A DNA stretch of 35,011 bases from the NCBI GenBank assembly GCA_019261985.1, contig JAFAQY010000105.1, positions 1-35,011 of the forward strand. Reading direction: 5' to 3'. The stretch comes from Bryobacterales bacterium. Lineage in GTDB: Bacteria; Acidobacteriota; Terriglobia; Bryobacterales; Bryobacteraceae. Positions within the stretch are counted from its first letter, which is position 1; every line of letters starts with the position of its first letter. Below, piece by piece: positions 1,160 through 30,885 of the stretch. A program made the position numbers and the translations under genes. The notes beneath the pieces are model-generated. The model saw only the letters and a program-made list of their open reading frames with translations. It searched no databases and was not told the origin of the DNA.

Positions 1160-1909
1160 TCATCGTCCGCCAGATACCGTGAGGATGCTCCCGGTAACGT
1201 ACGACGCCTCATCCGATAGCAGCCATAGAATTGCGGCAGCCACCTCTTCAGGCCGTCCGCCGCGTTGCATGGGCACCGATACCTTCACTCGATCCACTCG
1301 ACCGGGCTCTCCACCTTTCGCATGGAGATCCGTGTAGATGAAGCCCGGTTGGACCGCGTTCACGCGGATACCTTCCTCCGCGACTTCTTTCGCCAGTCCC
1401 ACCGTAAGGGTTTCAACGGCCCCCTTGCTTGCGGCGTAGTCGATATACTCGCCCGGCGAGCCGAACCGCGCGGCCCCCGAGGAAACGTTGACGATTGCTC
1501 CACCTTCCCCGCCGTGGCGTCGAGACATTCTGCGCACCGCCTCCTTCGAGCACAGAAAAGGGCCGGAGATATTCGTGGTAAACACTCGCTGGAGCCGCGC
1601 GGCATCCATCGACTCGAGCCGCATTTGCGCTTCCAGAGTGGCTGCGTTGTTGACCAGCGCGTCACATCGGCCTAGTTCGCGATCCACTGTTCCGAATAAA
1701 CCGGCCACTTGCGGTTCCGACCCAATGTCGGCTTGAACGATAATTGCCTTTCCGCCGCCTATGTGGATCTCATTGGCCACAGCTTCCGCGGCGGCGCGAT
1801 CTTTCAGATAGTTGATACAGACGGCGTAGCCAAGGCGGGCGGCCGCGCGCGCCGTAGCTGCTCCAATTCCGCGGCTCCCGCCCGTGATTACGATGACGCG
1901 CCCGGTCAC
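1160..1909 (-). CDS. SDR family NAD(P)-dependent oxidoreductase
   Basis: A classical short-chain dehydrogenase/reductase of 249 residues, the usual length. Visible motifs are the cofactor-binding TGGSRGIG at residues 9-16, the NNAA motif, the catalytic Ser in NVSSGA, and the YAASK active site (Tyr-x3-Lys). The C-terminus VTGSILTVSGGR resembles 3-oxoacyl-ACP reductase (FabG)-like and glucose-dehydrogenase-like members. It would act in the cytoplasm and reduce or oxidise a carbonyl/hydroxyl group; the substrate cannot be told. The start codon overlaps the stop of the upstream amidohydrolase gene by 4 bp (ATGA), which indicates translational coupling. It is the last gene of the minus-strand operon that starts at the GntR regulator. 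Confidence 0.9.
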   Translation of the reverse strand: MTGRVIVITGGSRGIGAATARAAARLGYAVCINYLKDRAAAEAVANEIHIGGGKAIIVQADIGSEPQVAGLFGTVDRELGRCDALVNNAATLEAQMRLESMDAARLQRVFTTNISGPFLCSKEAVRRMSRRHGGEGGAIVNVSSGAARFGSPGEYIDYAASKGAVETLTVGLAKEVAEEGIRVNAVQPGFIYTDLHAKGGEPGRVDRVKVSVPMQRGGRPEEVAAAILWLLSDEASYVTGSILTVSGGR

Positions 1910-2748: not shown

Positions 2749-2751
2749 CAG

Positions 2752-3831: not shown

Positions 3832-3910
3832 TAGGTGGTTCCTCCAAGGAGATATTACAGAAGAATCACGCTGTCCGGCGCGGTTTCAGTTCGAACCTGC
3901 GCGGGGACGT

Positions 3911-15666: not shown

Positions 15667-16011
15667 TTACGCGGCTTCTCCTTCTATTTCGATGCGGCTT
15701 CCAGCGGTCACATCGACGAGGACGATGCCGTTTTCGACGCGCGTGGGATATGTCGTGATACAGGCGGGCAACGAAGCCCGCGACGCTATTCCGCTCTCAA
15801 GATCGAAGCGCCAGCCGTGCAGCGGGCAGACGACCGTCGTTCCGGACACAATTCCGTCGCACAGCGGACCGCCCTTGTGCGGGCACCGGTTATCGATTGT
15901 GAGGAAGCGTCCATCGATATTGAAAATCGCGAGTTCCTGGCCGCCGAGGGAAACGGAACGCCCCTCGCGCGCCGGAATATTTTCGATTGGAGTGATCTTC
16001 GTCCAGTTCAT
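15667..16011 (-). CDS. nirD: Assimilatory nitrite reductase small subunit (Rieske protein NirD)
   Basis: A 114-residue Rieske [2Fe-2S] protein with the cluster ligands in CPHKGGPLC and CPLHGWRFDL, typical of NirD, the small partner of NirB. The start is taken as ATG 16011 because it overlaps the nirB stop in an ATGA quartet, the usual coupling arrangement. A TTG at 16026 would lengthen it by five residues but lies within a palindromic repeat. The narK gene begins 3 bp downstream. NirD helps NirB reduce nitrite to ammonium in the cytoplasm using NAD(P)H. Confidence 0.93.
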   Translation of the reverse strand: MNWTKITPIENIPAREGRSVSLGGQELAIFNIDGRFLTIDNRCPHKGGPLCDGIVSGTTVVCPLHGWRFDLESGIASRASLPACITTYPTRVENGIVLVDVTAGSRIEIEGEAA

Positions 16012-18494
16012 ATTGAAGTAGGACAAGCTTCGGCTTGTCTATTTGTAGGACAAGCTTCAGCTTGTCTATTTGTTGGACAAGCTAAAGCATGTCCTACCGG
16101 TTCCATCGGCTGAATCTGCAAAAACTGCGTCGCTTCCACCGGCGCGTCGCGCTCGAGCCAGGCATCCTTTGCCAGCGCCTTGGACCGGTGCAGCCGCTCT
16201 AACAATTTGGCGCGGTCCGCCTCCGGCGCGTACACCGTCTCCTTACGGACCTTCTCGATGCCGAGCCGCTCGACAAAATCGTAGGTGCGCTCAAGGTAAT
16301 TCGCGTTCTCGCGGTAATACTGGAAAAACAGTTCGCACGCTTCGAGCGCCTGCTCGGTTGTATCGACGGTAATCAACAAATCCGCCTTGCGCACGCTCTT
16401 GCCCGCCGCGCCGCCGACCACGACCTGCCAGCTTCCGTCCTGCCCCACCATGCCGATGTCCTTCACGGTGGCCTCGGCACAATTGCGCGGGCAACCGACC
16501 GCGCCCATCTTCACCTTGTGCGGCGTGAAAAGATTTTCGAGCCGCCGTTCAAGCTCAATCCCCGCGCGGGTCGAATCCTGCACTCCAAAACGGCAGAACT
16601 CCGTGCCAACACAGGTTTTCACCATGCGGACACCTTTGGTGTATGCCTGTCCGGACGGCATGCCGAGATCGGCCCAGACCTTCGGCAAGTCCGCCTTCTT
16701 GACGCCGAGCAGATCGATGCGCTGGCTCCCAGTGACCTTGACCATCGGAACTTCGTATTTTTCCGCCACATCGGCGATGCGCCGCAGCTCGGCCGGCGAT
16801 GTTACGCCGCCGCGCATGCGGGGAATCACGGAAAAGGTTCCGTCCTTCTGGATATTGGCGTGGACGCGATCGTTGATGAAGCGCGCCGAGCGGTCCTCAT
16901 CGTGCCCGCCGCACCACAGCATGTCGAGCATGTAACTCAGCGCCGGTTTGCAAACCTCACAGCCTTTGCGATTGCCGTAGACGTTTAGAACCTCTTGCAC
17001 GGACTTCAGCTGTTGGCCGCGCACGATGTCACGAAGCTGCTCAAAGGAAAACGGCAGGCAAGCACAAAGCGTCGTCTTGGTTTCCTCGCGAAAGTCCGGC
17101 GCGACGGCCCGCATTAACTGCTGGCATAGGCTCGTGCAGCTACCGCAGCTAGTGGATGCCCGCGTGCATTCCTTCAAATGCGAAAGGGTTGTGATTCCGT
17201 GCTCGTGGATGGCGCGGATGATGTCGCCCTTGCGGACGCCGTTGCATCCGCAGATGGTGTCGCTGTCAGGCATTTCCGCGATCTCCCGGCCCGGATCGGC
17301 GACCGGCGGGGGCGACAGAAGTTGGCGGCGCAGGGGAGCCAAATCCGTCGCGCTCCGCATCCATTCCATATAGCGGCGCTCGTCTTCGGTATCGCCGACA
17401 AGGATCATGCCCTGCAGCCGGTTGTCTTTGAGAAGAAGCTTTTTGTAAATGCCGGCAGCGGGGTCTTCATAACGAATCGCTTCGACGCCCGGCGCCGTTT
17501 CATCGATCGACCCCGCCGAAAAAATATCCACGCCCATGATCTTGAGCTTGGCCGCGGGCGCCGCGCCCGAGAAGACTGCGTCATGATTGCCCGTAATCGC
17601 CGAAGCGAGCACGCGTCCCTGCTCGTATAACGGCGCGACCAGGCCAAACGTCTGCCCCCGGTGTTCCGTGCACTCCCCGACCGCGAAAATATCGGGATCG
17701 GATGTCCGCATGCGATCGTCGACCACGATGCCGCGCCGCACCGCCAGACCCGCCGCACGGGCCACTTCGGTATTGGGCTTGATCCCTGCCGCGATCACCA
17801 CCAGGTCCGCTTCCAGTTCTTCTCCGGAGGCGAAGCGCAGCCCCTCCACGTGGCCATTTCCGCAGATGGCGGCGGTTTGCTTCGGGAGCATCACGCGGAT
17901 ACCGAGACTGTGAATCTTGCGCTGAAGATATTCGCCGCCGGTCGCGTCTAGCTGCCGTTCCATCAGGGTTTCCATCAGATGTACGACGGTGACGTCGCAG
18001 CCGCGCAGTTGCAAGCCTCGGGCGGCTTCCAATCCGAGCAAACCCCCGCCGATCACGACGGCCTTCAGGCCTTTGCGCGCCTTGGTTACCAAAGCGCGCG
18101 TATCGTCTAGGGTCCGGAACACATGCACGTTGCCCTTATCCACGCCCGGAATCGGAGGAACAAACGCGCTGCTGCCGGTCGCGAGAATCAGGTTGTCGTA
18201 GGGCGTTTCGCCGCCGGTTTCATCCAGAACCAGCCGTTCGCTGCGATCGATAGCGGTCACGCGCGTACCCAGCCGCGCGCGTATGCCGTTTTCCTGATAC
18301 CAGTTGCGGCCGTTGAGAACGATGTCGTCGGCGGTCTTTTCCCCCGCGAGAACCATGGACAGAAGAATGCGGTTATAGTTGACGTGCGTCTCGTCGCCGA
18401 AGATCGTGATTTCGAAATCGTGGCGGAGCTTGAGGATTTGCTCGACGCACGCCACGCCGGCCATGCCGTTGCCGACCACCACCAGTTGCTTCAT
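16008..18494 (-). CDS. nirB: Assimilatory nitrite reductase [NAD(P)H] large subunit NirB
   Basis: An 828-residue nitrite reductase that makes ammonium from nitrite with six electrons. The N-terminal FAD domain has VVGNGMAGVACVEQIL, and the NAD(P)H domain VIGGGLLGLEAARGL near residue 150. Two BFD-like [2Fe-2S] regions follow: ICGCNGVRKGDI with CTRASTSCGSC, then TLCACLPFSFEQL with GCEVCKPAL. The sulfite/nitrite reductase core binds sirohaem and 4Fe-4S through TCVGTEFC and GCPRNC. A start ATG at 18494 has AGGTGG 6 nt upstream. The last 29 or so residues, with two QAEACPTNR-like nonapeptides, are encoded by a 27-bp tandem array of palindromic repeats and are not part of the enzyme family. Confidence 0.95.
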   Translation of the reverse strand: MKQLVVVGNGMAGVACVEQILKLRHDFEITIFGDETHVNYNRILLSMVLAGEKTADDIVLNGRNWYQENGIRARLGTRVTAIDRSERLVLDETGGETPYDNLILATGSSAFVPPIPGVDKGNVHVFRTLDDTRALVTKARKGLKAVVIGGGLLGLEAARGLQLRGCDVTVVHLMETLMERQLDATGGEYLQRKIHSLGIRVMLPKQTAAICGNGHVEGLRFASGEELEADLVVIAAGIKPNTEVARAAGLAVRRGIVVDDRMRTSDPDIFAVGECTEHRGQTFGLVAPLYEQGRVLASAITGNHDAVFSGAAPAAKLKIMGVDIFSAGSIDETAPGVEAIRYEDPAAGIYKKLLLKDNRLQGMILVGDTEDERRYMEWMRSATDLAPLRRQLLSPPPVADPGREIAEMPDSDTICGCNGVRKGDIIRAIHEHGITTLSHLKECTRASTSCGSCTSLCQQLMRAVAPDFREETKTTLCACLPFSFEQLRDIVRGQQLKSVQEVLNVYGNRKGCEVCKPALSYMLDMLWCGGHDEDRSARFINDRVHANIQKDGTFSVIPRMRGGVTSPAELRRIADVAEKYEVPMVKVTGSQRIDLLGVKKADLPKVWADLGMPSGQAYTKGVRMVKTCVGTEFCRFGVQDSTRAGIELERRLENLFTPHKVKMGAVGCPRNCAEATVKDIGMVGQDGSWQVVVGGAAGKSVRKADLLITVDTTEQALEACELFFQYYRENANYLERTYDFVERLGIEKVRKETVYAPEADRAKLLERLHRSKALAKDAWLERDAPVEATQFLQIQPMEPVGHALACPTNRQAEACPTNRQAEACPTSI
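16021..16094. repeat. Palindromic repeat array A (three units, 27-bp period) at the nirB/nirD junction
   Basis: Three 20-bp palindromes start at 16021, 16048 and 16075 with an exact 27-bp period. The best unit reads GGACAAGCTTCAGCTTGTCT; the third has GCTAAAGC in the centre. The period is a multiple of three, and the array lies inside the nirB reading frame, giving repeated nonapeptides at the protein's end. Each unit can form a hairpin in the mRNA. Confidence 0.9.
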
Positions 18495-18510
18495 ATGTTG
18501 CCACCTGGTA

Positions 18511-18558
18511 GAACAAACTTCAGCTTGTCCTCACTGGTGGACAAGCTGAAGCTTGTCC
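18511..18558. repeat. Palindromic repeat array B (two units, 28-bp period) between nasC and nirB
   Basis: Two units of the same family occur at 18511-18530 (decayed left arm GAACAAAC) and 18539-18558 (perfect GGACAAGC...GCTTGTCC). They fill most of the 73-bp gap between the nasC stop and the nirB start. Confidence 0.88.
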
Positions 18559-18567
18559 AACTCCGAT

Positions 18568-20724
18568 TCATTCTCTTGCTCCTGAGCGCTCTACTCTGAC
18601 CGCGCACTGCTTATAGTTCGGTTCCCGCGAGATCGGATCGAACGCGCTCTGCGTGACCTCATTCACGTTGGTTTCCGCGTAATGGAACGGCATGAACACC
18701 TGCCCGGGCGCGATGATCTCCGTCAATCGAAGCTCCACGCCGCGCACGCGCCCGCGCCTTGAAACCACATCCACCCGGTCGTGGCTGCGCAGATTGAGCT
18801 GCTTCGCGTCGCGCGGGTTCATCTCCAGCCAGGCCTGCGGCGATAACCGCTCTAAAATCGGCACCTCGCGGGTTTTCGTGCGCGTGTGCCAGTGCTCTAC
18901 GGTGCGCCCTGTGTTGAGCACCAGTGGAAAGTCTTTGCCGGGCTGCTCGGGAAACGACTTCCATTCCGAGCAAATAAGTTTGGCGCGGCCATCCGCGGTT
19001 TGAAAAACTCCATCCGCATAAAGCCGCTCCCCGCCCCACTGCATCGCGCCTTCTTCGGCGAGCCGCTTGTAAGTGATCCCGGAGTAGTCGCACAAACGGC
19101 CTCTCGAAACCCGCCGCCATTCTTCGAATGCGTCCTCCACTGTTTGCCAGCCCGGATAAAGCTGCTCGCGCGCGCCAAGCTTCTCCGCGACAGCGAGAAA
19201 AATGTCGAAATCCGCGCGAGCCTGACCCGGAGGATCGACGGCCTTGTTGACCTTGCTCACCCGGCGTTCCGAGTTCGTATACGTGCCCTCTTTTTCTCCC
19301 CACACCGCGGCGGGCAGAACCAGGTGCGCCAGTTCGGTTGTCGGCGTGGGATGGTAGCCGTCCTGGACAACCAGAAAATCGAGGTTCGAGAGCGCCTGCT
19401 TCAAGACCTCCTGATTCGGAAACGAAACCAGCGGATTAGTCGCGATAATCCACAACGCGTGAATCTTCTTGCCCACGGCCGCTTCGACGATGTCCGGATA
19501 AGCCAGTCCCCGTTTTGCCGGCAGCCGCGATTCCTCGATGTTCCACAGGCCGGCCAGTTCGGCGCGATCTCGCGCCTCATCGAACTTCCGGTAGCCCGGC
19601 ATGCTGGAAGTGAAACCCGACTCGCGCGTACCCATCGCGTTGCATTGCCCGGTGATGGAGAAGGGCGCCGCGCCGGCGCGTCCCATATTTCCCGTCATTA
19701 GCGCGAGGTTGCAGAGCGCGTTCACGGTGGCGGTGCCTTGCGAGCTATGATTCACGCCCATCGTCCAAGCGATGAAACCCGCCTTGGCGCGCCCGTACAG
19801 AAACGCTGTCTTGTACAGCAACTCGACGCTAAGCCCGGTGATTTCGGATACGCGCTCCGGCGTGTAAGCCTTCAGAAATTCCGCAAGCTCGTCAAAACCG
19901 TTCGTATGGTGGCCAACGTATTCGCGGTCGATCAGGCCCTGCCGGATCAGAATGTGCGCAATGCCGTTGGCCAGCGCCAGATCCGACCCAGGCCGAAGGG
20001 GGAGGTGCAGATCGGCCATCATCGCGGTTTTTGAGACGCGCGGGTCCGCGACGATCAGGGTCCGGCGCGGATTGGAATCCAGATACTGGCATAAGATCGG
20101 ATGGTTGTCGGCGATGTTCGCCCCCACCAGCAGGACCACGTCCGCTTGTTCCAGGTCGGCATACGCCCCGGGAGGCCCGTCGCTGCCGAAGGAGATCTTG
20201 TAGCCGGAAACCGCCGTGGCCATGCACAGAGTCGTGTTCCCGTCATAGTTATTGGTGCCGAAGCCGAGCTGCACCAGCTTGCCAAGGGCGTAGAACTCCT
20301 CGGTCACAAGCTGTCCGGTACTGATCACGCCGAGTGAATTCGGACCGTACTTCGCTTGCACGGAACGGAAGCGCCCGACCATGGCATTGAGCGCTTCATC
20401 CCATCCAACGCGCACAAGTTTTCCGTTCTTGCGCAACAGGGGATAGCGGAGCCGGTTTTCGGCGGCGATCGTATAGTGTTCCGAAAGGCCCTTCGGGCAC
20501 AGCTTGCCGCGATTGACGGGGTGCGACGCCAGTGGCCGGGTAGCGATAGCCGCGCCGGCCTTAACGCCAATCTCTATGCCGCAACCGACAGAACAATAGC
20601 CGCAGGTCGTGGGGACCCACTTTTCAGGAATCTTCTTGGCGGAAGTATAGCCGGTTGTTTCGCCGCGCGAGTAGGCGTAGTCTTTCTGCAGCGTGTCGAT
20701 GCCGGAAAGGCGTAAGAAGTTCAT
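18568..20724 (-). CDS. nasC: Assimilatory nitrate reductase catalytic subunit (molybdopterin oxidoreductase)
   Basis: The protein is probably 718 residues from ATG 20724, which has GGAG 7 nt upstream. A TTG-started version to 20748 would include part of a palindromic repeat. The N-terminal [4Fe-4S] site is TTCGYCSVGCGIEIG (C-x2-C-x3-C). Molybdopterin-family blocks follow: KLCPKGLSEHYTI, GNTTLCMATAVSGYK, NHPILCQYLDSNPRRTLIVAD and NALCNLALMTGNMGRAGAAP. The dinucleotide-binding end has LNTGRTVEHWHTRTKTREV and MPFHYAETNVNEVT. These are typical of cytoplasmic NasA/NasC enzymes that reduce nitrate to nitrite. No NADH-binding NasB or ferredoxin gene is present; electrons probably come from the fused DmsBC-like protein encoded upstream. 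Confidence 0.93.
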   Translation of the reverse strand: MNFLRLSGIDTLQKDYAYSRGETTGYTSAKKIPEKWVPTTCGYCSVGCGIEIGVKAGAAIATRPLASHPVNRGKLCPKGLSEHYTIAAENRLRYPLLRKNGKLVRVGWDEALNAMVGRFRSVQAKYGPNSLGVISTGQLVTEEFYALGKLVQLGFGTNNYDGNTTLCMATAVSGYKISFGSDGPPGAYADLEQADVVLLVGANIADNHPILCQYLDSNPRRTLIVADPRVSKTAMMADLHLPLRPGSDLALANGIAHILIRQGLIDREYVGHHTNGFDELAEFLKAYTPERVSEITGLSVELLYKTAFLYGRAKAGFIAWTMGVNHSSQGTATVNALCNLALMTGNMGRAGAAPFSITGQCNAMGTRESGFTSSMPGYRKFDEARDRAELAGLWNIEESRLPAKRGLAYPDIVEAAVGKKIHALWIIATNPLVSFPNQEVLKQALSNLDFLVVQDGYHPTPTTELAHLVLPAAVWGEKEGTYTNSERRVSKVNKAVDPPGQARADFDIFLAVAEKLGAREQLYPGWQTVEDAFEEWRRVSRGRLCDYSGITYKRLAEEGAMQWGGERLYADGVFQTADGRAKLICSEWKSFPEQPGKDFPLVLNTGRTVEHWHTRTKTREVPILERLSPQAWLEMNPRDAKQLNLRSHDRVDVVSRRGRVRGVELRLTEIIAPGQVFMPFHYAETNVNEVTQSAFDPISREPNYKQCAVRVERSGARE

Positions 20725-20742
20725 GCACATGCTCCGGCAGTA

Positions 20743-20828
20743 GGACAAGCTTCAGCTTGTCCGGACATTAGTAATGGACAAGCTGAAGCTTGTTCAGACG
20801 TTAGCAATGGACAAGCTGAAGCTTGTCC
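20743..20828. repeat. Palindromic repeat array C (three units, 33-bp period) between dmsBC and nasC
   Basis: Three units start at 20743, 20776 and 20809 with an exact 33-bp period. They read GGACAAGCTTCAGCTTGTCC, GGACAAGCTGAAGCTTGTTC and GGACAAGCTGAAGCTTGTCC. They occupy nearly all of the 118-bp gap between the two genes. Confidence 0.9.
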
Positions 20829-20842
20829 TACTGAGCTTCCCG

Positions 20843-22387
20843 TCATGCGGCCACCTTTCCCGGCGCCGTAAACGCTGCGGCGATGTTCTTTGGCACTACG
20901 CTCACGAAGAATAGCCATCGCCCGATCAACTCCCCTCCGAGCGCTAGGAGCAGAACTAGCGGTGAAAAACTCACCACGGAAAGCACGATCACGGCAACCA
21001 GCACGGCCCCCCGAACCAGGAATGCACGCCGCAATCTGCCCGACAGCAGCAACGCCGACCCGCGTAGCTCAAACTGCTCCGATCGCGCCATCCACAAAAA
21101 CTTCAGCACTTGAGTGAAAAGTTGCGCCGCCCCGCCGGCCGCCGCCGCGTGTCCGAGCCATACCGTACCCGCCGGATCCATCGAGCGAACGAACAGAGGC
21201 CCCAGCAGCAACATGGTGGAGAAAAATTCCGCGGCCGTGTAGCGGCTATGCCATGCGGGCCTCGCCGGAACCATGTAAATCCGCGCCGAACAGAACACTC
21301 CCGCCGCGCCGCACACTGCCGTCAGTAGACCTATCCAGGCGCGGCCCGGCAAATTCAACAGCAGCATGCCCGCGTACACACCCGCGACGCCGGCGAAAAC
21401 CGAGAGCATCGCCACCTCGCGGCTCAGCCAGCTCCGCCGCAGCCCTCGCAAAGCTCGCCATGCGAACGCCGGCCGGCCCAAATGCAGTGTCGCGGCGCCC
21501 AAACTAATTCCCGCCAATGCCAGCGAGCCGAGCGCGGGCAGCAGCAATCCCGCGTGTGCTTTCAAGATGTCCAGCATCCATAACGCGGCAAATGCGCCCC
21601 CGGAAAGCTGCGTCAATACCAGCATCAAAACCAAAGGCCAATGGGGAGCTTCCGGCGCGATTCTTTGCGTATCCACGCGGCCCGTATCCGGCAGCAGGTC
21701 TTCCGGCAGCGTTACGCGCGTGGTAGAAGTACTGTCGCCGGCGGAGGGCAATCCGGGCGCTTCCGCCGCCACGAAATCGGCTCGCCATTGCGCGACGTTT
21801 ACGATTTCCACCGCGATCGCCCCTTCCGGGCAAGCCGCTACGCATGCGGGCGCCATGCCGTCGCTCAAACGGTTATGGCAGAGATCGCATTTACCCACCA
21901 CTCCCCGCTCGGGGTTGTATTGCGGAACTCCATACGAGCAGTTCCAGGTGCAATACTGGCAGCCGATGCAGGTATCGGCGTTATGGAGCACTACGCCCGT
22001 GCGCGAGTCCTTCGTATAGGCTTCCACCGGGCAGCCGATTAGACAGGATGGCTCCAGGCAATGATTGCAGCCCATCGAAAGGTGATACCGCTGCGTGTAT
22101 GGGTAATGGCCGCCTTCTACTTCGCCCACCCGCCGCCAGTTGATAGCGGCCGGGTTGCCGTTCTGCTCATTGCAAGCCACGACACAGCACTTGCAGCCGA
22201 TGCACTTTTGCATGTCGAAGTGGAAACGGTATTGTTCTCCCGCTTCGAGCGGCCGCTCGGGAATCAACGCTGCGCGGGCCTGCGTGCGCGGTTTCGTGGG
22301 TATGGCGCACAATTCGCTTTCAAACAACGGAAGGCTCGCCGTACCGTTGCGTATTGCGTCCGGATACACTATGACCGTTTGCGCCAC
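20843..22387 (-). CDS. DmsB-DmsC fusion: four-cluster ferredoxin subunit plus membrane anchor, electron donor to nitrate reductase
   Basis: The protein is probably 514 residues from GTG 22387, chosen because GGAG lies 5 nt upstream; a TTG at 22453 has no such site and would translate leader structures. The first 200 residues carry four cysteine groups of a DmsB/NrfC-type protein: CIGCKCCVVAC, CNHCLEPSCLIGC, CIGCQYCTWNC and CDLCHNRLSDGMAPACVAAC. After a linker, about eight hydrophobic helices resemble DmsC, the quinol-oxidising anchor (LVLMLVLTQLSGGAFAALW onward). In DMSO reductase these are two proteins. Here the fusion heads the nitrate operon, so it probably takes electrons from quinol and delivers them to NasC in the cytoplasm. 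Confidence 0.88.
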   Translation of the reverse strand: MAQTVIVYPDAIRNGTASLPLFESELCAIPTKPRTQARAALIPERPLEAGEQYRFHFDMQKCIGCKCCVVACNEQNGNPAAINWRRVGEVEGGHYPYTQRYHLSMGCNHCLEPSCLIGCPVEAYTKDSRTGVVLHNADTCIGCQYCTWNCSYGVPQYNPERGVVGKCDLCHNRLSDGMAPACVAACPEGAIAVEIVNVAQWRADFVAAEAPGLPSAGDSTSTTRVTLPEDLLPDTGRVDTQRIAPEAPHWPLVLMLVLTQLSGGAFAALWMLDILKAHAGLLLPALGSLALAGISLGAATLHLGRPAFAWRALRGLRRSWLSREVAMLSVFAGVAGVYAGMLLLNLPGRAWIGLLTAVCGAAGVFCSARIYMVPARPAWHSRYTAAEFFSTMLLLGPLFVRSMDPAGTVWLGHAAAAGGAAQLFTQVLKFLWMARSEQFELRGSALLLSGRLRRAFLVRGAVLVAVIVLSVVSFSPLVLLLALGGELIGRWLFFVSVVPKNIAAAFTAPGKVAA

Positions 22388-22560
22388 TAAGGCTCCGTAA
22401 GTCGAGAAAAAACTCGAGACAAATCTTTCGGCCCGCGACGAAGCAGGCGTCAATCTGTCGCTACAAGGGAACTGGCTCTGCGATGAGCCTTAGGGTGGGA
22501 TACAACAGGGTCCCGGATACTGCTACCGCCGGAAACCCGTTCGTTTCGCAAGCGAACTCA
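22388..22560 (-). promoter_or_regulatory. Structured leader of the nitrate operon, candidate antitermination element
   Basis: About 170 nt separate the predicted transcription start from the GTG start. Visible hairpins on the minus strand are GGGT...ACCC with inner CCGG/CCGG (22538-22508); GGCTC/GAGCC with hexaloop AUCGCA (22489-22474); and GCCTGC/GCGGGC with hexaloop UUCGUC (22448-22431). The last is enclosed by GACAGAT/ATTTGTC (22459-22453 with 22424-22418). A T6 run follows at 22412-22407, just before the ribosome binding site. Paired hexaloop stems ahead of a terminator are the design bound by ANTAR regulators such as NasR, which need A at loop position 1 and G at position 4. The first loop fits and the second has only the G. 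No ANTAR gene is in the window. Confidence 0.4.
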
Positions 22561-22640: not shown

Positions 22641-23810
22641 TTATTTGCTTCTGCCATTAGCGGGCGCGGGCGCCTTTTGAGATTCTTTAGCTCCCGGCAA
22701 CCATTCGGGACCCAAATCCTCCCGCTGCTCCACCACCTCCACAACGACGTCCTTCACAACCTCCCTGACGGCTTCCTTCACCGCTTCCTTCACGCTCTCC
22801 TCGACTTCCTTCGGATCCAACTCGACGTGCTTCTCGTCTCCCGCGATCTCGTGAATCACCGCCTGCAACACCGGCGCGACCGGCTGCAAATCCCTGGTGA
22901 CTGCCTTTGCCACCTTCTTGGCCGCTTTCGCCGCGGCGGCTTCTTCGTCCACCGCCGTTTGTTCCTTGGCTTTGTCCGCCGCCTGCCAGTCATGCTCGAA
23001 AATGGCGGCTATGCGGCTTACGATGCGCTTGTCCGGGAAAACAATTCCCACCTCCCGGCGCGCGTCGAGCTCCGCTTCCCGCAGACTCTGGCTGCCGATG
23101 AATGCATGCGTGCGATCGCGTATCATTGCCCGCGTGTGCAGACGCATGCGGTGCAGCTTCAATGCCCGAAGTGTCGCGCGCTTCTGGCCGAGCTCGCCTA
23201 GAATCCGGATATCCACCCCCGCCGCGGCGCGTTCCTCCAGAATCCGAATCATGGCGGAATCGCTGACCATCGGGTCATAGATCAGCAGCTCTTTCTTCGC
23301 GCCTTTTATGAAGCGCGCCAGTTCCTTACGCGCATTCACCGGGCTCACAATCAGCTTCTGATTACCGGCTTCGTAAACCAGTCTCTTGGTGTCGGCTTCG
23401 AATAGGCGGACCGCCTCGTGCACCAGGTTTCGATTGGTGGTGACGATGCCGAAACTGCGGCTCCGCTCGATGTCCAGATAGGTGAGATTGAAGGAGAGTA
23501 GATGCAGCTCACGCCGGTCGACGATCATCATCTTGCCGTGATAGCGCACCAAATCGTTCGACGTTCGCGCGACGTTGACACCTTCGGCCAGCAGCCGCAT
23601 TTCCAGGTCGCGCAGCCCATCTTCCCCGCCGCGATTGGCATGGGCCACCAGCGCGTGGACGAAGACTCCGCGCTTCACGGCGTTCGCCAGCGCCCGCTCA
23701 ATTTCGCTGCGGTCGAACCGGAAAATCACGATTTCGATGCTGCTCTTCGCGCTGTTAATTCCTTTAATCACCAAGCCTGGGCCGTCACCCGGCTGAATCA
23801 TCAATTGCAT
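22641..23810 (-). CDS. Phospholipase D-like (PLDc) domain protein with charged C-terminal tail
   Basis: The protein is probably 389 residues from ATG 23810, which follows GAGGGAGGG; an upstream extension to 23870 lacks support. Two PLD-like halves are visible. The first has a good HKD motif, RYHGKMMIVDRRELHLLSFN. The second reads LHTRAMIRDRTHAFIGSQS, where the motif Lys is replaced by Arg. Such proteins include cardiolipin synthases and nucleases. Residues from about 310 on form an Ala/Lys/Glu/Val-rich tail, likely helical, with repeated VKEAVKEAV-type text. No signal peptide is evident. The substrate cannot be told. It lies upstream of, and in the same direction as, the nitrate operon, which has its own promoter. 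Confidence 0.85.
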   Translation of the reverse strand: MQLMIQPGDGPGLVIKGINSAKSSIEIVIFRFDRSEIERALANAVKRGVFVHALVAHANRGGEDGLRDLEMRLLAEGVNVARTSNDLVRYHGKMMIVDRRELHLLSFNLTYLDIERSRSFGIVTTNRNLVHEAVRLFEADTKRLVYEAGNQKLIVSPVNARKELARFIKGAKKELLIYDPMVSDSAMIRILEERAAAGVDIRILGELGQKRATLRALKLHRMRLHTRAMIRDRTHAFIGSQSLREAELDARREVGIVFPDKRIVSRIAAIFEHDWQAADKAKEQTAVDEEAAAAKAAKKVAKAVTRDLQPVAPVLQAVIHEIAGDEKHVELDPKEVEESVKEAVKEAVREVVKDVVVEVVEQREDLGPEWLPGAKESQKAPAPANGRSK

Positions 23811-23924
23811 GGGATCCCTCCCTCGGCGCTGCTGAACCCCGCCCTTATGCGGCTGCAAACCGCTCGTCAACCCCGTCCCTTACGGCGGCGGTCACGCGCA
23901 GGGACTAGTCCGCGCGACTTACAC

Positions 23925-23995: not shown

Positions 23996-25036
23996 ATGAT
24001 TTTGAAGCGAAGCTACTTCGCCGTGATTTTGACCATACTCGTGGTGAATATCGCGACCGTAGAGGCAAAGAAAAAAGGACACAAATCAGCCGGGGATGAT
24101 GTAGAAAATGCATCCCTCGGCCGTGCAGTTTTATGGACCAATCCCGGTGATATTTCCAGCCGGAATTTGTTGTATGGCCCAGGGGGCAAAGAGCATCAGC
24201 CCCATGGCGCAATGCAATTCGTAGAAGAAGACCCGGAAGGCACCAACCCCAAATTCGTGGTCCGCGATCAGGACGGAGTGAGGTGGAAGGTTAAGCTCGG
24301 CCTGGAGGCGCGGCCGGAAACCGCTGCCTCGCGTATCGTCTGGGCCGCGGGCTATTACACCAACGAAGATTACTTCATGCCTGACTTGCATGTGGACGGC
24401 ATGCCCGAACACCTCCAGCGGGGACAGGAATTCGTCGACGCAGGCGGGCTCGTACACAACGTTCGGCTGAAGCGATATTTGGAAGGCGAAAAGAAGATCG
24501 GGGAGTGGAAATGGGAGGATAACCCTTTCACGAACACGCGCGAGCTAAACGGCTTGCGCGTGATGATGGCGCTGATCAATAGCTGGGATCTGAAGGATGA
24601 AAACAACGCCATCTATGAAGAAAAATCCAACGCCGGGCGGCCCGAGCGAATATATATGATCAGCGATCTGGGGTCTTGCTTTGGCGCGCCCAATCTCACG
24701 TTTCCGCTCGGACACGCCAAGGGCGACCTGGACGTCTATCGCGGCTCCAAATTCATCGCGCACGCCGGCCCGAGTTTTATCGATTTTGCGACGCCGTCCG
24801 GCGCATCGTTGGCCGTCCAAGTTTTCAGGCCGCGCGAGGGCTTCATGCGAAGGCGGCTGGAGTGGATTGGAAAGGACGTCCCGCGCGCGGATGTAAAGTG
24901 GATCGCCGAGGTGCTGTCGCAGCTCACGCCGGAGCAGATCGCGGATGCATTTCGCGCCGCCGATTATCCTTTCGATAAGATCAACGGTTTTGTCGCGGTG
25001 GTGGTGAGCCGGATCGACGCCCTGAAGCGCATATGA
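23996..25036 (+). CDS. Exported protein of unknown function with kinase-like motifs (paralogue A)
   Basis: The protein is probably 346 residues from ATG 23996, chosen because it opens a signal peptide (MILKRSYFAVILTILVVNIA). It belongs to a family I associate with Acidobacteria but with no established function. The order of conserved spots resembles a protein or lipid kinase. A Lys-rich strand precedes an acidic helix (VRWKVKLGLEARPE, K98/K100, E105/E108). A catalytic-loop-like NSWDLKDENN has D198, K200 and N203/N204. A metal-binding-like SDLGSCFG has D224. These recall HRDLKxxN and DFG, or the HipA type N-x-D-x-H-x-x-N. The kinase assignment is my inference. The stop overlaps the start of its tandem paralogue by 4 bp. 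Only a weak ribosome binding site (AAAGAG) is present. Confidence 0.75.
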   Translation: MILKRSYFAVILTILVVNIATVEAKKKGHKSAGDDVENASLGRAVLWTNPGDISSRNLLYGPGGKEHQPHGAMQFVEEDPEGTNPKFVVRDQDGVRWKVKLGLEARPETAASRIVWAAGYYTNEDYFMPDLHVDGMPEHLQRGQEFVDAGGLVHNVRLKRYLEGEKKIGEWKWEDNPFTNTRELNGLRVMMALINSWDLKDENNAIYEEKSNAGRPERIYMISDLGSCFGAPNLTFPLGHAKGDLDVYRGSKFIAHAGPSFIDFATPSGASLAVQVFRPREGFMRRRLEWIGKDVPRADVKWIAEVLSQLTPEQIADAFRAADYPFDKINGFVAVVVSRIDALKRI

Positions 25037-26061
25037 GTCCGGCGCGAATCCTTGCTGCCTCAGCCGCGGTTTTATTTGTTCTTCCCGCCGGCGCGCATAT
25101 AAAGAAAGAACGAAAACCGTCCGCCGGGGTCCTGCGAACCGCCCCGGTGGTGAAAGTGTTGTGGCGGAACCCTTCGGATATCGCCTCGCGCAACCTCTAT
25201 TACGGACCCGGCGGAAAGCGCGATCGCCCCCATGGCCGGATGACCTTCATCAAAGAGGACCTGAACGACACCAATCCGAAATTCGACGTTCGCGATGAGG
25301 ACGGTGTGAAATGGAGGGTGAAGCTTGGCTTTGAGGCTCGCCCCGAAACCGTCGCGTCGCGGCTGGTCTGGGCAGCCGGATACTTCGCCAACGAAGATTA
25401 CTTCGTTCAAGATCTGCAAATCGCCAACATGCCGCAACATTTGCACCGCGGACAGAAACTGGTATCGCCGGACGGCTGGGTCCACAATGTCCGCTTGAAG
25501 CGGCTCCCCAAGGATGAGAAAAAGATCGGCTCCTGGAGTTGGGCGGAAAATCCATTTACCGGAACGCGGGAACTGAACGGATTGCGGGTCATGATGGCGC
25601 TGATAAACAACTGGGATCTGACGGACTGGAAGACCGCAATTTATGAGGAGAAGACAACCGGCGCGGCGGTAGAACAGATTTACATGGTCAGCGATCTGGG
25701 CGCCAGTTTCGGCACTCCGCGGCTCACCTGGCCATTGAAGCGAACCCGGGGCAATCTCGCAATGTACCGGAATTCGAAATTAATCGCCCATGAGGGACCC
25801 AGCTTTATCGATTTCACAAATCCCTCGCGTGCGTCCCTGTATCTTTTGGCGCAACCGCGTGAATACCGGCTTCGTCTTCGCCTCGACTGGATCGGCAAGC
25901 ACATTCCTCGCGGCGACGCGAAATGGATCGGAGGAGTATTGGCCCGGCTCTCGCCCGATCAGATCCGCGATGCGTTCCGCGCGGCGGGGTACTCGGAGGA
26001 CCAAATCGAGGCATTTACCGCGGCGCTGGAGAGCCGAATCTCTGAAATCCAGGATCTCTAG
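25033..26061 (+). CDS. Exported protein of unknown function, tandem paralogue B (degenerate kinase-like motif)
   Basis: A 342-residue protein with signal peptide (MSPARILAASAAVLFVLPAGAH). It aligns along its whole length with the preceding gene; shared blocks include SRNLxYGPGGK, FxVRDxDGVxW, EARPETxASR, NPFTxTRELNGLRVMMALIN and WIGKxxPRxDxKWI. The SDLGASFG motif (D221) is kept. The catalytic-loop-like segment, however, reads NNWDLTDWKT, so relative to paralogue A the Lys (K200) becomes T197 and the two Asn become K200/T201, while D195 remains. If the family is kinase-like, this copy may be inactive or regulatory. The ATGA overlap with gene A implies coupled translation. The function is unknown. 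Confidence 0.75.
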   Translation: MSPARILAASAAVLFVLPAGAHIKKERKPSAGVLRTAPVVKVLWRNPSDIASRNLYYGPGGKRDRPHGRMTFIKEDLNDTNPKFDVRDEDGVKWRVKLGFEARPETVASRLVWAAGYFANEDYFVQDLQIANMPQHLHRGQKLVSPDGWVHNVRLKRLPKDEKKIGSWSWAENPFTGTRELNGLRVMMALINNWDLTDWKTAIYEEKTTGAAVEQIYMVSDLGASFGTPRLTWPLKRTRGNLAMYRNSKLIAHEGPSFIDFTNPSRASLYLLAQPREYRLRLRLDWIGKHIPRGDAKWIGGVLARLSPDQIRDAFRAAGYSEDQIEAFTAALESRISEIQDL

Positions 26062-26228: not shown

Positions 26229-26876
26229 ATGCATCACAAAAGTCTGGTAGCGATCGGATTGATACCTCTGATAATGAGTCCGGTTCTCGCCGCGAAAGAT
26301 CCGGACGATGATACACGGCCGGCAGCTAAGCACGGCGTCCGAGGATTCATTCGAGGAACGTTCACGCCGACCGCCATCGGGATGGCTGGATTAGGGGCGG
26401 GAATCAATCAGGGCACCGACACACCTCACGAATGGGGGCAAGGCGCGGCGGGATTTGGGCGGCGGTTTGCATCGGCGATGGGTAAACACATCATCGGCCA
26501 CGGGATTCATTACGCAGTGTCCCGAGCGTTGCATGAGGAAATCGATTACCGGCCGTCCGGCAAGACCGGTTTCGCACCCAGGTTGGAGTACGCGCTTCTT
26601 AGCACGGTAATTACCCGTAAAACCACCACCGGCGACAAAACGATCAATGCAGGCGAACTTGCCGGCGCATTCGGAAGCGGATTGATTTCCCGGGCCTGGC
26701 AACCGGCCAGCACCGCGTCGATAGCGCATGGTTTCGCATCCGGAGGAATATCGTTGGGCGTAAATGCCGGATTGCACGTCACGCGCGAGTTCTGGCCTGA
26801 AATCCGCCATCCTCATCAGCACCAGCATCGGGGGCCTGTGGCGCCCGCCATCGCCGCGGATGCAGATAGTCGTTAA
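26229..26876 (+). CDS. Exported Gly-rich protein of unknown function
   Basis: The protein is probably 215 residues from ATG 26229, preceded by GGAGGGTGG; an in-frame extension to 26199 has no ribosome binding site. The signal peptide is SLVAIGLIPLIMSPVLA. The mature part has alternating small-residue and amphipathic stretches (GMAGLGAGINQG, GAAGFGRRFASAMGKHI, ELAGAFGSGLISRAW) and a His-rich end (HPHQHQHRG). These suggest membrane association or a small beta/helix-hairpin envelope protein. I do not recognise a named domain. The coding end overlaps the trehalase start by 17 bp. It is part of the plus-strand series of exported proteins. Confidence 0.7.
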   Translation: MHHKSLVAIGLIPLIMSPVLAAKDPDDDTRPAAKHGVRGFIRGTFTPTAIGMAGLGAGINQGTDTPHEWGQGAAGFGRRFASAMGKHIIGHGIHYAVSRALHEEIDYRPSGKTGFAPRLEYALLSTVITRKTTTGDKTINAGELAGAFGSGLISRAWQPASTASIAHGFASGGISLGVNAGLHVTREFWPEIRHPHQHQHRGPVAPAIAADADSR

Positions 26877-28407
26877 AAACCAAGCTTGCTCGTCGGTCCA
26901 GGAGGTCCGGCGCTATATAGAAAATTCTTGGAGTGCGCTGCGGCGCACCGAAGCGTCGGTAGTGAAGTTCGGAAACGATATTAAGGTTGCAGCCGACGAA
27001 CGTGTGCGGGTCTACGTGCCTCCCAATGTTTCGCCAGAGGCGATCGCGGACCGGTTCCGCAATCAACTCGATTCAAGCGACTTTCAAAAGATGGAAGTGC
27101 TGCAGCTGCCGGAGCGCGGCGAGCCTTCCAAGCCCGGGCTTCTGTACCTGCCTAACCCTTATATCGTCCCCGGCGGGCGATTCAACGAGATGTATGGTTG
27201 GGACAGCTATTTCATCGTTCGCGGCCTTCTTCAGGACGGGCAAATAGAACTGGCGAAGGGCATGACGGACAATCTGATCTTCGAAGTCCGGCACTATGGC
27301 AAAGTCCTAAATGCCAATCGAACTTATTATCTGACCCGCTCGCAACCGCCGTTTCTTTCTTCGATGGTGCGCGAGGTCTACGGCCGGACTCATGATCGGG
27401 CATGGCTCCAGGACACCATTCCCGCGCTCGAAGATTACTATCGCTATTGGACCAGCGAGCCACACCTCACCCCCGAGACGGGACTGTCGCGCTACGAAGG
27501 TGGCGCGGACACACCCGCGCCGGAAGTGCTGGCGAGCGAGAGCGATATTCACGGGCGGAACGACTACGAGCGCATACGGCGTTATTTCAGCACCCACAAT
27601 GTCGAGACCTATCAAAAGTCGCGCTTCTATGATGAGGCGACCGGCCAATTAACGCCGCTTTTCTACCGCGCTGACCGCGCGATGAGGGAATCGGGATTCG
27701 ACCCTTCCAGCCGCTTCGGTCCGTTCAGCGCGGCCATTCTCGACTACAATCCCGTCGATCTGAACTCGCTCCTCTACCTTATGGAGACCGATGTCGCGGC
27801 AATTCACAAGGAACTGGGGCGCGCTGGCGAAGCGGGCGATTGGACTGCGCGAGCGCAGCGCCGCGCGGAGGCAATCAACCGCTTGATGTGGGACGAGCCG
27901 GCGGGCCTGTTTTTCGATTACGATTTGCGCAATCACCGGCGCTCGCACTATAAGTTCCTAACCGCTATCTACCCTCTATGGACGGGTCTGGCGTCACAAG
28001 AGCAGGCCTCACGGGTGAACCGGAATCTGGCGCTGTTTGATCGGCCCGGCGGTCTTCAGACCAGCGCCCATCGCAGCGGCGATCAATGGGACGCGCCGTT
28101 CGGCTGGGCGCCGCTTCAACTGATCGCCGCGGAGGGCCTCCGCCGCTACGGCTTTGACCATGCCGCGGACCGCATCTCCATCGAGTTTCTGTCGATGCTG
28201 GTTCAGGACTTTCGGAAGCATAAAACTTTGCGAGAGAAATACGACGTGGTCACCTTGCGATCGGATCTCGCCGCTGGGCTCAAGTTCGGCTATTCCAGTA
28301 ACGAGGTCGGATTTGGTTGGACGAATGCCGTTTTTGAAGTGCTTTACGCCGAATTTTCGCCCTCCGCGCGCGAGCACCTGAACCAGACTTGCAGGACCGG
28401 GCACTGA
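26860..28407 (+). CDS. treF: Trehalase, GH37 family (cytoplasmic)
   Basis: The protein is probably 515 residues from ATG 26860. A longer ORF to 26764 would overlap the previous gene by over 100 bp and has no extra family sequence. It hydrolyses trehalose to two glucose. GH37 signatures are PGGRFNEMYGWDSYF and QWDAPFGWAPLQ. The catalytic acid region is ESGFDPSSRFG, and the catalytic-base region near the end is NEVGFGWTNAV. No signal peptide is seen, so it is assigned to the cytoplasm (TreF-like), unlike its exported neighbours. No good ribosome binding site precedes the ATG; the 17-bp overlap suggests translational coupling. A conserved-looking YIENSWSALRRTE starts the enzyme proper. Confidence 0.92.
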   Translation: MQIVVKNQACSSVQEVRRYIENSWSALRRTEASVVKFGNDIKVAADERVRVYVPPNVSPEAIADRFRNQLDSSDFQKMEVLQLPERGEPSKPGLLYLPNPYIVPGGRFNEMYGWDSYFIVRGLLQDGQIELAKGMTDNLIFEVRHYGKVLNANRTYYLTRSQPPFLSSMVREVYGRTHDRAWLQDTIPALEDYYRYWTSEPHLTPETGLSRYEGGADTPAPEVLASESDIHGRNDYERIRRYFSTHNVETYQKSRFYDEATGQLTPLFYRADRAMRESGFDPSSRFGPFSAAILDYNPVDLNSLLYLMETDVAAIHKELGRAGEAGDWTARAQRRAEAINRLMWDEPAGLFFDYDLRNHRRSHYKFLTAIYPLWTGLASQEQASRVNRNLALFDRPGGLQTSAHRSGDQWDAPFGWAPLQLIAAEGLRRYGFDHAADRISIEFLSMLVQDFRKHKTLREKYDVVTLRSDLAAGLKFGYSSNEVGFGWTNAVFEVLYAEFSPSAREHLNQTCRTGH

Positions 28408-28441: not shown

Positions 28442-29011
28442 ATGAAATTGTTTCCCTGTGCCCGCGTGGCCTCTATCGCGACATTTGTGGTTTCTTTTTC
28501 TTTCCCGGTCTTTTCCGCGTCTTCCGTGGAAGCGCCGGGTGTTACAAATTTTCATCAGATCAACGATCGCGTGTATCGGGGGGCCCAGCCAACCGCTGAA
28601 GGTTTCGCCAGCTTGGCGAAACTCGGCGTAAAGACGATCGTCGACCTACGCGGTAAGGACGAGCGCCGGGAAGTGGAGCGTCAGATCGTCGAAGCGGATG
28701 GAATGAAATATGTGAACTTGCCGATGAAAGGCATGACCACTCCCGCGGACGAGCAAGTCGCGAAAGCGCTGGCTCTGCTGGAGGACAGCTCCGCGGGCCC
28801 GGTGTTCGTGCATTGCCAGCGAGGCGCCGACCGCACGGGAGCGGTTATGGCCATTTATCGCATTGAGCACGACCACTGGTCGAACTCGGATGCCCTGAAA
28901 GAGGCGAAATCTTTCGGTATGAGCCCCTTTCAGCGCGCGATAGAGCATTACGTGCTGCGCTTCCAGCCGGCTCAGTTGTCGGCTTGGATTGTGGCACCGA
29001 CAATACAGTAA
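28442..29011 (+). CDS. Exported dual-specificity/tyrosine phosphatase-like protein
   Basis: A 189-residue protein with a signal peptide (FPCARVASIATFVVSFSFPVFSA). The phosphatase P-loop is VFVHCQRGADRTG (C125, R131 of Cys-x5-Arg), and VDLRG (D68) and the opening VYRGAQPTAEGFASL are typical of bacterial DSP-like enzymes acting on phosphotyrosine, phosphoinositides or other phosphate esters. It lies 34 bp after the trehalase gene on the same strand. An exported phosphatase a short distance from the exported kinase-like pair suggests phosphate-based signalling or modification outside the cytoplasm, but this is conjecture. The family call is firm. Confidence 0.88.
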   Translation: MKLFPCARVASIATFVVSFSFPVFSASSVEAPGVTNFHQINDRVYRGAQPTAEGFASLAKLGVKTIVDLRGKDERREVERQIVEADGMKYVNLPMKGMTTPADEQVAKALALLEDSSAGPVFVHCQRGADRTGAVMAIYRIEHDHWSNSDALKEAKSFGMSPFQRAIEHYVLRFQPAQLSAWIVAPTIQ

Positions 29012-29094: not shown

Positions 29095-30885
29095 TTAAGC
29101 CGCGGAGATTAAGGACGGCTGGACTTGCAGTTCGTACAACTCCGCGTACAAACCGCCCGCCTGCACTAGTTGATCGTGCGTTCCCCTCTCGATGATCTCG
29201 CCTTTATCGATCACGAAAATAATATTCGCGCGCTGAATCGTAGAAAGGCGATGCGCAATCACGATAGATGTCCTGCCCTCCATCAGCCGGTCGAGAGCCT
29301 CAAAGACCAGCTTCTCCGACTCGGCATCCAGCCCGGTGCTGGGCTCGTCCAAAATGAGAATCGGCGCATCGCGAATAATCGCGCGGGCGATTGCGATCCG
29401 CTGCCGCTGGCCGCCGGATAGAGTGACGCCTCGCTCGCCCACGATTGTGTCGTAGCCCTGCGGCAAGCGGTCGATGAACTCCTTGGCGTTGGCCAGCTCG
29501 GCCGCGCGCAGGATTTCCGCCCGCGTCGCCTCCGGCTTGCCGTAGGCGATATTGTTCCAAACCGTTCCGTGGAACAGTAGCGTTTCTTGAAGCACGAACC
29601 CAATGTGCTGCCGCAACGAGCGTTGCGTGAAAGAGCGGATGTCGGATCCATCGATCTTCACCACCCCGGATGCCGGATCATAAAACCGCGGGATCAAGCT
29701 GATGATCGTGGATTTTCCCGCGCCCGTGCGGCCCACCAGCGCGGCGAGCTGCCCCGGCTCGATTTTCAGGTCCACATTCTTGAGAATGGGACAATCTTCC
29801 TGATACTGGAAGTTGACGCGCGCGAACTCGATTCTGCCCTTGAGACTTCCTGCTCGGCGCGCACTGGGCAGATCCCGGATCTCGCCGTCGGTGTTCAGCA
29901 CTTCGCGAATGCGCTCGAATCCGACGGATGCTTTCGAATATGTGTCCGTCATCTTCGAAAGTTCCTGCATCGGTTTGTACATCTTGCCCAGGTACAACAC
30001 GAATACTACAAGAGCTCCCGCCGAGAGGCCGTTGCCCATCGACATGCGCGCTCCGAACCACAGGACGAGACAGGTACCCACGGCAACGATAATCTCCACG
30101 ATCGGCGCGAGTTTGGCCTTAAGACTCCGCGCCCGCAGGGCGATTTCGATGCCCTCGAGACTTTCTTCCTCCAGCCGGCGCTGCTCGTACTCCTCACGCG
30201 CGAAGGCCTTCACGACGCGGATTGACGAAAGCACCTCCTGGATAACGGAAACGATCTCGCCCTCTTTCTTACGGACCTCCCGGGATGCTTTCTTGATGCG
30301 CCGCGTGTACGAATACACGACCAAAAACAGCACCGGCGCTACGGAGAGAGCGATCAGCGTAAACCGCCAGTTGAGGTAAAGCATTACCCCGACCATTCCC
30401 ACCAGCGTGAGGCCGTTGATGAAGACGCCCAGCATACCCGACGCGATGAAACTCTGGATGGCGTCTATGTCACTGGTAACGCGGCTGATCAGGTCGCCTG
30501 TCCGAGTGTGGTCGTGGTAGGACAACGAGAGGCGCTGGATGTGCGAATAAAGGATGCGCCGGAGCTCGTGCATCACCCATTGGGAAACGCTTGTGGTGAC
30601 GTATTTTTCGGTGTAAGAGCAGATAGCTCCGATTACCGCAATCGCCAGAACCGCAAGTACGGCGAATTTCAGAATCGCGAGCTTGTCGTCGCCGATATAT
30701 GTGAGGACAAAATTCTGAGGCGGAGCGGGAAGCGCCTTCGAGCGCAAGACATTATCGAGTACGACCTTAAGAGGCCAAGGCTCCAGTAGATTTGCAACAC
30801 CTTCCCCGATCACCGCCACGAAGCCTATAGCCAAGGCTTTGGAATGCGGCTTCAGCAACTCCGCGAAGTTTAGCCCTTTTATCAT
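29095..30885 (-). CDS. ABC exporter half-transporter (MsbA-like, TMD-NBD)
   Basis: A 596-residue fused exporter. Residues about 20-310 are the transmembrane domain with six helices. From about 340 on is the nucleotide-binding domain with Walker A GRTGAGKST, Q-loop FVLQETLLF, signature LSGGQRQRIAIA, Walker B ILILDEPSTGLD and switch His in VIAHRLST. Such homodimers move lipids, peptides or drugs across the inner membrane; the substrate is not evident. The start overlaps the stop of the HEAT-repeat gene by 4 bp. It is the last gene of the minus-strand group that begins with the OmpA-like gene. Confidence 0.92.
   Translation of the reverse strand: MIKGLNFAELLKPHSKALAIGFVAVIGEGVANLLEPWPLKVVLDNVLRSKALPAPPQNFVLTYIGDDKLAILKFAVLAVLAIAVIGAICSYTEKYVTTSVSQWVMHELRRILYSHIQRLSLSYHDHTRTGDLISRVTSDIDAIQSFIASGMLGVFINGLTLVGMVGVMLYLNWRFTLIALSVAPVLFLVVYSYTRRIKKASREVRKKEGEIVSVIQEVLSSIRVVKAFAREEYEQRRLEEESLEGIEIALRARSLKAKLAPIVEIIVAVGTCLVLWFGARMSMGNGLSAGALVVFVLYLGKMYKPMQELSKMTDTYSKASVGFERIREVLNTDGEIRDLPSARRAGSLKGRIEFARVNFQYQEDCPILKNVDLKIEPGQLAALVGRTGAGKSTIISLIPRFYDPASGVVKIDGSDIRSFTQRSLRQHIGFVLQETLLFHGTVWNNIAYGKPEATRAEILRAAELANAKEFIDRLPQGYDTIVGERGVTLSGGQRQRIAIARAIIRDAPILILDEPSTGLDAESEKLVFEALDRLMEGRTSIVIAHRLSTIQRANIIFVIDKGEIIERGTHDQLVQAGGLYAELYELQVQPSLISAA

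Follow-up and report, generated by a model that had tools for sequence, protein, structure and literature searches.

A tandem pair of predicted exported proteins from a soil acidobacterium belongs to an unannotated kinase-like family that recurs beside polyphosphate-type and phosphatase genes

Two adjacent genes in a 35,011-nucleotide stretch of DNA from a soil bacterium (Bryobacterales bacterium, GenBank assembly GCA_019261985.1, contig JAFAQY010000105.1, positions 1 to 35,011 of the forward strand; hereafter the window) encode paralogous proteins, A and B, of a family designated here F1. Sequence comparison indicates that F1 is an unannotated protein-kinase-like family, with no Pfam or NCBIfam family for A or B and no Pfam kinase family for the 33 members scanned. 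The reading that we consider probable is that A would be an envelope phosphotransferase of a HipA/CotH-related family with a link to polyphosphate, and that B would be a retained pseudokinase-like partner. What recurs across genomes is the wider gene neighbourhood, not the A/B pair itself. The features of the two genes are as follows.

23996..25036, plus strand: paralogue A, predicted exported kinase-like protein with the catalytic set intact, 346 aa
23996..24067, plus strand: signal-peptide-like N-terminus of A, approximately residues 1–24 (hydrophobic 12-mer, mean KD 2.8; predicted end point)
24239..24319, plus strand: GTNPK (G82–K86), WKVK (K100), E104 and E108 of A, putative equivalents of the loop, β3 Lys and helix-C Glu, from the HipA family register and conservation
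24584..24607, plus strand: WDLKDENN of A, catalytic-loop motif, residues 197–204
24662..24673, plus strand: SDLG of A, residues 223–226, DFG equivalent
25033..25036, plus strand: ATGA overlap of the A stop (25034–25036) and the B start (25033–25035)
25033..26061, plus strand: paralogue B, predicted exported kinase-like protein with K200→T, N203→K and N204→T (A numbering), 342 aa
25033..25095, plus strand: signal-peptide-like N-terminus of B, approximately residues 1–21 (hydrophobic 12-mer, mean KD 2.8; predicted end point)
25612..25635, plus strand: WDLTDWKT of B, degenerate catalytic-loop motif, B residues 194–201

A and B share 58% identity across 337 aligned positions and are the only F1 genes found by a profile search of their own genome. 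The coordinates, lengths and ATGA junction given in the initial annotation were confirmed, as was its description of motifs in kinase order in A (K100, then WDLKDENN with D198, K200 and N203/N204, then SDLG with D224) and of a second copy that keeps both Asp residues and loses the Lys and Asn. A thus has the catalytic Asp, the metal-binding Asn at +5 and the DFG-type Asp (D198, N203, D224). B lacks this set through its three substitutions, with both Asp retained, and the β3 Lys (K100) and helix-C Glu (E108) are found in both proteins.

The family was sampled in two ways. A pattern scan that covered 84,980 species genomes found 34 loci, each with an acidobacterial title. Since the scan patterns contained the catalytic motif and reached close relatives only, the search was repeated with a profile in 396 Acidobacteriota genomes, 62 of which had a match and 45 an F1-type match (cut 186 bits); the other 17 matched genomes had sister-family matches or fragments only. 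Alignment A1 contains 33 sequences, namely A, B and 31 of the 34 pattern-scan loci (L020 repeats L017, the match in L024 runs over two frames, and L034 is a fragment). The census contains 120 nonredundant members including A and B, after omission of L024, matches below 150 bits and sequences contained in another.

Five residues are invariant in the census (K100, E104, D198, D224 and G226, 120/120 each), followed by E108 (119), N203 (114), K200 (104) and N204 (99). WDLKDENN was among the scan patterns, so that agreement at the Lys and Asn is built in for 31 of the 120 rows; among the 87 profile-found rows, which exclude those 31 as well as A and B, K200 is present in 72, N203 in 82, and all six key residues in 70. 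The pair of lysines first singled out, K98 and K100, reduces to K100, as position 98 is Lys in only 33 of 120 members, and conservation among the acidic residues falls on E104 and E108. K200 and N203 are both lost in four rows (B, L062, L063 and L065). The last three retain N204, which leaves B as the sole member of the census without an Asn at 203 or 204. L062, L063 and L065 form one F1 clade, with Leu/Ile at position 200, Gln at 203 and Asn at 204; here the catalytic loop has changed a second time, independently of B.

No kinase family of Pfam matched A, B or the 33 members scanned, and none of NCBIfam matched A or B; at the Pfam cut-offs, HipA_C (PF07804), HipA_2 (PF20613), CotH (PF08757) and Fam20C (PF06702) were each without a match in A, B and the 33 members. 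A match to DUF6544 (E 0.015; 6 of 33 members, best 0.0034) covers a short stretch and lies below the cut-off, and was taken as chance. No paper dealing with the F1 family, or pairing PPK1 with an exported kinase, was found among the open-licence papers searched.

The relationship to kinases emerged from profile comparisons through sister families F2 and F3, which were traced from weak matches of the F1 profile search in the 396 genomes. F2 proteins are mostly 530–650 aa, and 32 members have the Lys in 26, the catalytic-loop Asp in 29, the Asn in 30 and the DFG Asp in 32; F3 has 10 members of approximately 350–440 aa. With hhalign, F1 matched F2 at 99.5% (E 1e-22) and F3 at 99.9%. F2 in turn matched HipA_2 at 94% (E 8e-8) and HipA_C at 49% (E 2e-4), compared with a best score of 0.6% against 18 unrelated neighbour families. 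Among the known families, HipA_2 and HipA_C score 92% with each other, and CotH and HipA_C 89%. The direct scores of F1 (HipA_2 1.8%, HipA_C 2.9%, CotH 3.4%, Pkinase 0.3%) are at noise, the best of the 18 unrelated families being 2.1%, and the assignment of F1 to the kinases is therefore transitive, by a chain through F2. The reference profiles were built from 20 of 28 HipA_2 loci (L130 gave no ORF, and the seven weakest were omitted), 18 of 22 CotH, 17 of 23 HipA_C and 23 of 30 Pkinase loci. One F2 member (L153) matches Pfam HipA_2 with E 9e-4 and 19.0 bits (cut-off 27), and a whole-genome HipA_2 search finds the same gene.

The alignments agree at the level of individual residues. Seven key positions of F1 and HipA_C are in register (G82/G152, K86/K156, K100/K181, E108/E194, D198/D303, N203/N308 and D224/D326), including the GxxxK loop and the D-x-x-x-x-N loop; the key residues of F2 and HipA_C are likewise in register, and the F1–CotH alignment covers the catalytic loop and DLG region alone. 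Searches of solved structures with the query P0001 and with the F1, F2 and F3 profiles returned no credible match (the best for F2 being pyruvate carboxylases, E 0.89); in a comparison search, a HipA_C protein from L176 does match solved HipA/HipT chains. These structure searches and the noise-level direct scores are what could be said for a family that is not kinase-like at all, with motifs that resemble those of kinases by chance and a neighbourhood that is a lipid or polysaccharide export locus. Against such an account, the homology of F1 to F2 is secure, F2 scores with HipA_2 far above all 18 unrelated families, the key residues are in register in the F1–HipA_C, F1–CotH and F2–HipA_C alignments, and the K, E, D and D vary hardly or not at all across the 120 proteins. 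We consider it very improbable, and a kinase-like fold for F1 is predicted with high confidence.

Several observations concern the sister families. The F2 loci L074–L084 and L255–L284 appear by eye to have signal-peptide-like N-termini and DFG and HipA-like motifs, and have no Pfam family. At E 1e-6, an F2 search had matches in 27 of 119 genomes; a small number of these matches are F1 genes. In L044, an F3 gene adjoins an F1 gene (70–1137 and 1137–2156, both minus strand), and so mixed F1/F3 tandem pairs exist.

Compared with the HipA-like kinases (HipA_2, HipA_C; HipA/HipT), F1 has in common the GxxxK loop, the β3 Lys, the helix-C Glu, the catalytic Asp with Asn at +5 and the later Asp, with order and register preserved. 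It differs in having no Pfam HipA match and in its signal-peptide-like N-termini, HipA proteins being cytoplasmic. In Hanks-type Ser/Thr kinases (PF00069) the catalytic loop reads RDLKPEN, which WDLKDEN of A resembles; F1 differs in having no Pfam match, and classical membership was rejected on the F1–Pkinase profile score of 0.3%.

The D-x-K-x-x-N and D-L-G elements are the usual arrangement for phosphotransfer, and phosphotransfer in the envelope by A is predicted with modest confidence. A and B might instead have a kinase-like fold and perform another transfer (AMPylation, glutamylation), or phosphorylate small molecules, lipids or glycans rather than proteins. Kinase-like families with such activities are known (SelO and SidJ, in the KINtaro paper), Fam20B is a xylose kinase according to PMC7948968, and a lipid or glycan substrate would fit the MsbA-kind exporter encoded nearby; with the ordinary phosphotransfer arrangement of the motifs standing against it, this alternative appears unlikely. 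Under the favoured reading, A would most likely bind a metal-phosphate donor via K100, E108, N203 and D224, with D198 as the catalytic residue, and may phosphorylate an envelope protein or glycan.

Evidence for export comes from the N-termini. A hydrophobic 12-mer is found near the N-terminus in 108 of 120 F1 proteins, compared with 0 of 34 neighbouring PLD-like proteins, in a simple scan of our own (for frames of at least 420 aa, the last 400 residues alone were inspected). The proposal of an exported kinase-like pair stands as to the export-type N-terminus, the kinase order with D-x-K-x-x-N spacing and the degeneracy of B at K and N, with the kinase link itself predicted from profiles via one intermediate family. 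In L061 (1150–3612, plus strand), an F1 domain is joined to a segment that resembles an outer-membrane barrel of the Omp85 family (NCBIfam E 1.9e-10, 40.8 bits; curated cut-off 200), a fusion that fits an envelope location.

The family tree places A and B as sisters (SH-aLRT 96) on branches of 0.42 and 0.43; the pair is the product of one local, lineage-specific duplication. Twenty-two columns are conserved to 95% or more in the rest of the census; A matches all of them and B all but N203. Of 58 columns at 80%, A loses four and B eight, and four of those in B (G82, K200, N203 and N204) belong to the loop and the catalytic motif. At the 95% columns, 37 of the 118 remaining rows match B or do worse in the number kept, so that B is unusual only in the location of its losses and not in their number. 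The remaining K100, E108, D198 and D224 suggest that B could still bind a donor.

The idea that B is a redundant copy without a separate function, now being lost, draws on those losses at G82, K200, N203 and N204, on a broken F1 copy in another genome of the genus (G414), and on tandem copies that come and go. It is harder to reconcile with a branch as long as that of A, with the 21 of 22 nearly invariant columns that B keeps, including K100, E108, D198 and D224, and with an open frame whose start overlaps the A stop. We judge it rather improbable. The pattern fits better with retained use, with lost or altered catalysis, than with decay, and the balance tips slightly toward B as a regulator or partner of A. 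Born by duplication in its own lineage, B has kept nearly all conserved positions and lost the metal-binding Asn and catalytic-loop Lys; it is most likely weakly active or inactive.

The secreted kinase Fam20C is activated by its pseudokinase paralogue Fam20A, as described in PMC7948968, and B may by analogy act on A as Fam20A does on Fam20C. A secreted, putatively active kinase accompanied by a degenerate paralogue is what the two cases would share, and the likeness is one of analogy only: the Fam20 proteins are eukaryotic, F1 has no Pfam Fam20C match, and a complex of A and B is conjectural. For the A/B case, a small natural experiment is offered in how a kinase becomes a pseudokinase. The residue lost in Fam20A is other than those lost in B.

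An active/dead pair as the system itself, as initially proposed, was not supported. In three other tandem pairs (G411, G412 and G436), K100, E108, D198, K200, N203 and D224 are present in all six copies, and the changes affect N204 or lengthen the loop only; an active/degenerate pair was found in one genome only, that of A and B, and a conserved active/dead design was rejected. Two further loci carry remnants. In G130, a fragment of a second copy lies 3′ of the F1 gene, and in G414 (L249 and L253, contig C13) an F1 copy is split over two frames with stops and is apparently a pseudogene.

The genes around A and B that have relatives at other F1 loci, or are related to polyphosphate enzymes, are the following.

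22641..23870, minus strand: c0, divergent neighbour, PLD-like protein related to PPK1 C-terminal domains (PLDc_2 E 7.7e-30; c0 family against PPK1 89%, E 2e-6)
26229..26876, plus strand: small protein with a signal-peptide-like start by eye; relatives at 7 F1 loci
28442..29011, plus strand: DSP/PTP-type phosphatase with a signal-peptide-like start by eye (PTP-NADK E 5.8e-27); relatives at other F1 loci
29095..30885, minus strand: MsbA-like ABC exporter; relatives at other F1 loci

Across 97 loci, the PLD-like/PPK group is found at 39, the ABC exporter at 31, a calcineurin-like phosphatase accompanied by a 195-aa partner at 18, and the PTP-type phosphatase at 8, the window included. These counts are lower bounds, because neighbour genes were called with our own longest-ORF rule, some loci overlap and flank lengths vary. 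Relatives of the small protein at 26229..26876 are found at 0 of the HipA, CotH and Pkinase reference loci, most of whose flanks are shorter. Among 67 nonredundant profile-found loci, c0 is present at 18, PPK1 at 5, the exporter at 12, the metallophosphatase at 13, PTP at 7 and DUF4956 at 11; at least one of c0, PPK1, PTP, metallophosphatase and DUF4956 is present at 37 loci, and none at 30, within the fetched flanks.

PPK1 lies directly upstream of F1 in L025, L026, L028, L029, L030 and L049/L086, and is full-length in a clade that includes Pyrinomonadaceae (L025 by NCBIfam, the rest by length and clustering). At other loci with a member of the PLD-like/PPK group, the place of PPK1 is taken by c0. 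In L028, F1 is preceded by a tandem of two PPK1-type frames (1087–5800, plus strand). DUF4956 lies directly downstream of F1 in L025, L113, L120 and L125, and all six DUF4956-group proteins tested scored over the Pfam cut-off; in L113, metallophosphatase, F1, DUF4956 and c0 are consecutive on one strand. A polyphosphate polymerase and DUF4956 are both in the F1 flanks at L025, L026, L028, L063 and L065. The scanned neighbours of A and B in the window include neither PPK1 nor DUF4956, the PPK1-like PLD gene being the only one of this kind.

The c0 protein of the window scores 22.0 bits (cut-off 25.7) against the Pfam PPK C-terminal domains, and its relative in L097 scores 30.2 (cut-off 25.7) and 26.5 (cut-off 25.8). 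In the c0–PPK1 alignment, the HxK histidine of c0 falls on a PPK1 histidine, which we take to be the catalytic one. F1 is present in 33 of 36 c0 genomes compared with 45 of 396 overall (cuts of at least 236 bits for c0 and at least 186 bits for F1; hypergeometric P = 1.2e-34, a value that ignores shared ancestry), and two of the three c0 genomes without F1 have F3 and one has F2. With all 55 c0-matched genomes counted, F1 is present in 35. Of 40 c0 genes, 21 are within 2 kb of F1 and four more within 5 kb of F3; 15 are near neither, some of them on short contigs.

Selected CotH loci provide a comparison. According to the survey PMC7112168, CotH, a polyphosphate polymerase, DUF4956 and DUF4832 form one accessory group of Pel clusters. 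CotH is an atypical kinase whose genes accompany those for a polyphosphate polymerase and DUF4956, a pattern that some F1 loci resemble, and the two families align locally on the catalytic motif; F1 differs in having no Pfam CotH match, a profile score at noise, and PPK1 or a PPK1-like PLD protein rather than VTC as its polymerase. Among 40 selected neighbours from 13 of 18 acidobacterial CotH loci, VTC was found three times, DUF4956 three times, a phosphate-selective porin twice and PLD once. The F1 loci look like a parallel to the CotH group, with another kinase-like family and another polymerase. In L290 (2242–7319, plus strand), a c0-like PLD gene, a phosphate-selective porin gene and a CotH gene lie in a row.

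The F1 neighbourhood gives a hint of phosphate chemistry on the outer side of the cell membrane. In the wider module, F1 may be coupled with a polyphosphate polymerase or with a PLD enzyme related to it, and the phosphatases whose genes lie next to many F1 genes would undo phosphorylation by F1; a functional link of F1 to polyphosphate is put forward tentatively, at somewhat less than even confidence. To our knowledge, the periplasm is not known to hold ATP, which counts against the proposed envelope kinase and raises the question of where a kinase outside the cytoplasm would get its phosphate. That polyphosphate rather than ATP powers the F1 kinases is improbable in our estimation. In that scheme, cytoplasmic PPK1 or a PPK1-like enzyme would make the chain, a membrane protein such as DUF4956 would pass it across, and the exported F1 kinase would draw on it to phosphorylate targets in the envelope. 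Exported phosphatases would remove these phosphates, and B would regulate the kinase as a pseudokinase; the set of CotH, VTC and DUF4956 would then be a second, parallel form of this machinery. The recurrence of F1 with a polyphosphate-type enzyme and a phosphatase makes the question of the phosphate source testable in cultured acidobacteria, for example Terriglobus roseus DSM 18391, with relatives in L017 and L020, and the analysis brings to light an unannotated kinase-like family together with its two sister families.

Two other parts of the window were noted. A trehalase gene (26764–28407, plus strand) lies between B and the phosphatase gene and is a singleton among the neighbour groups. 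Three large genes at 16008–22453 (minus strand) resemble by eye a nitrite reductase, a molybdopterin oxidoreductase and an iron-sulfur/membrane subunit.
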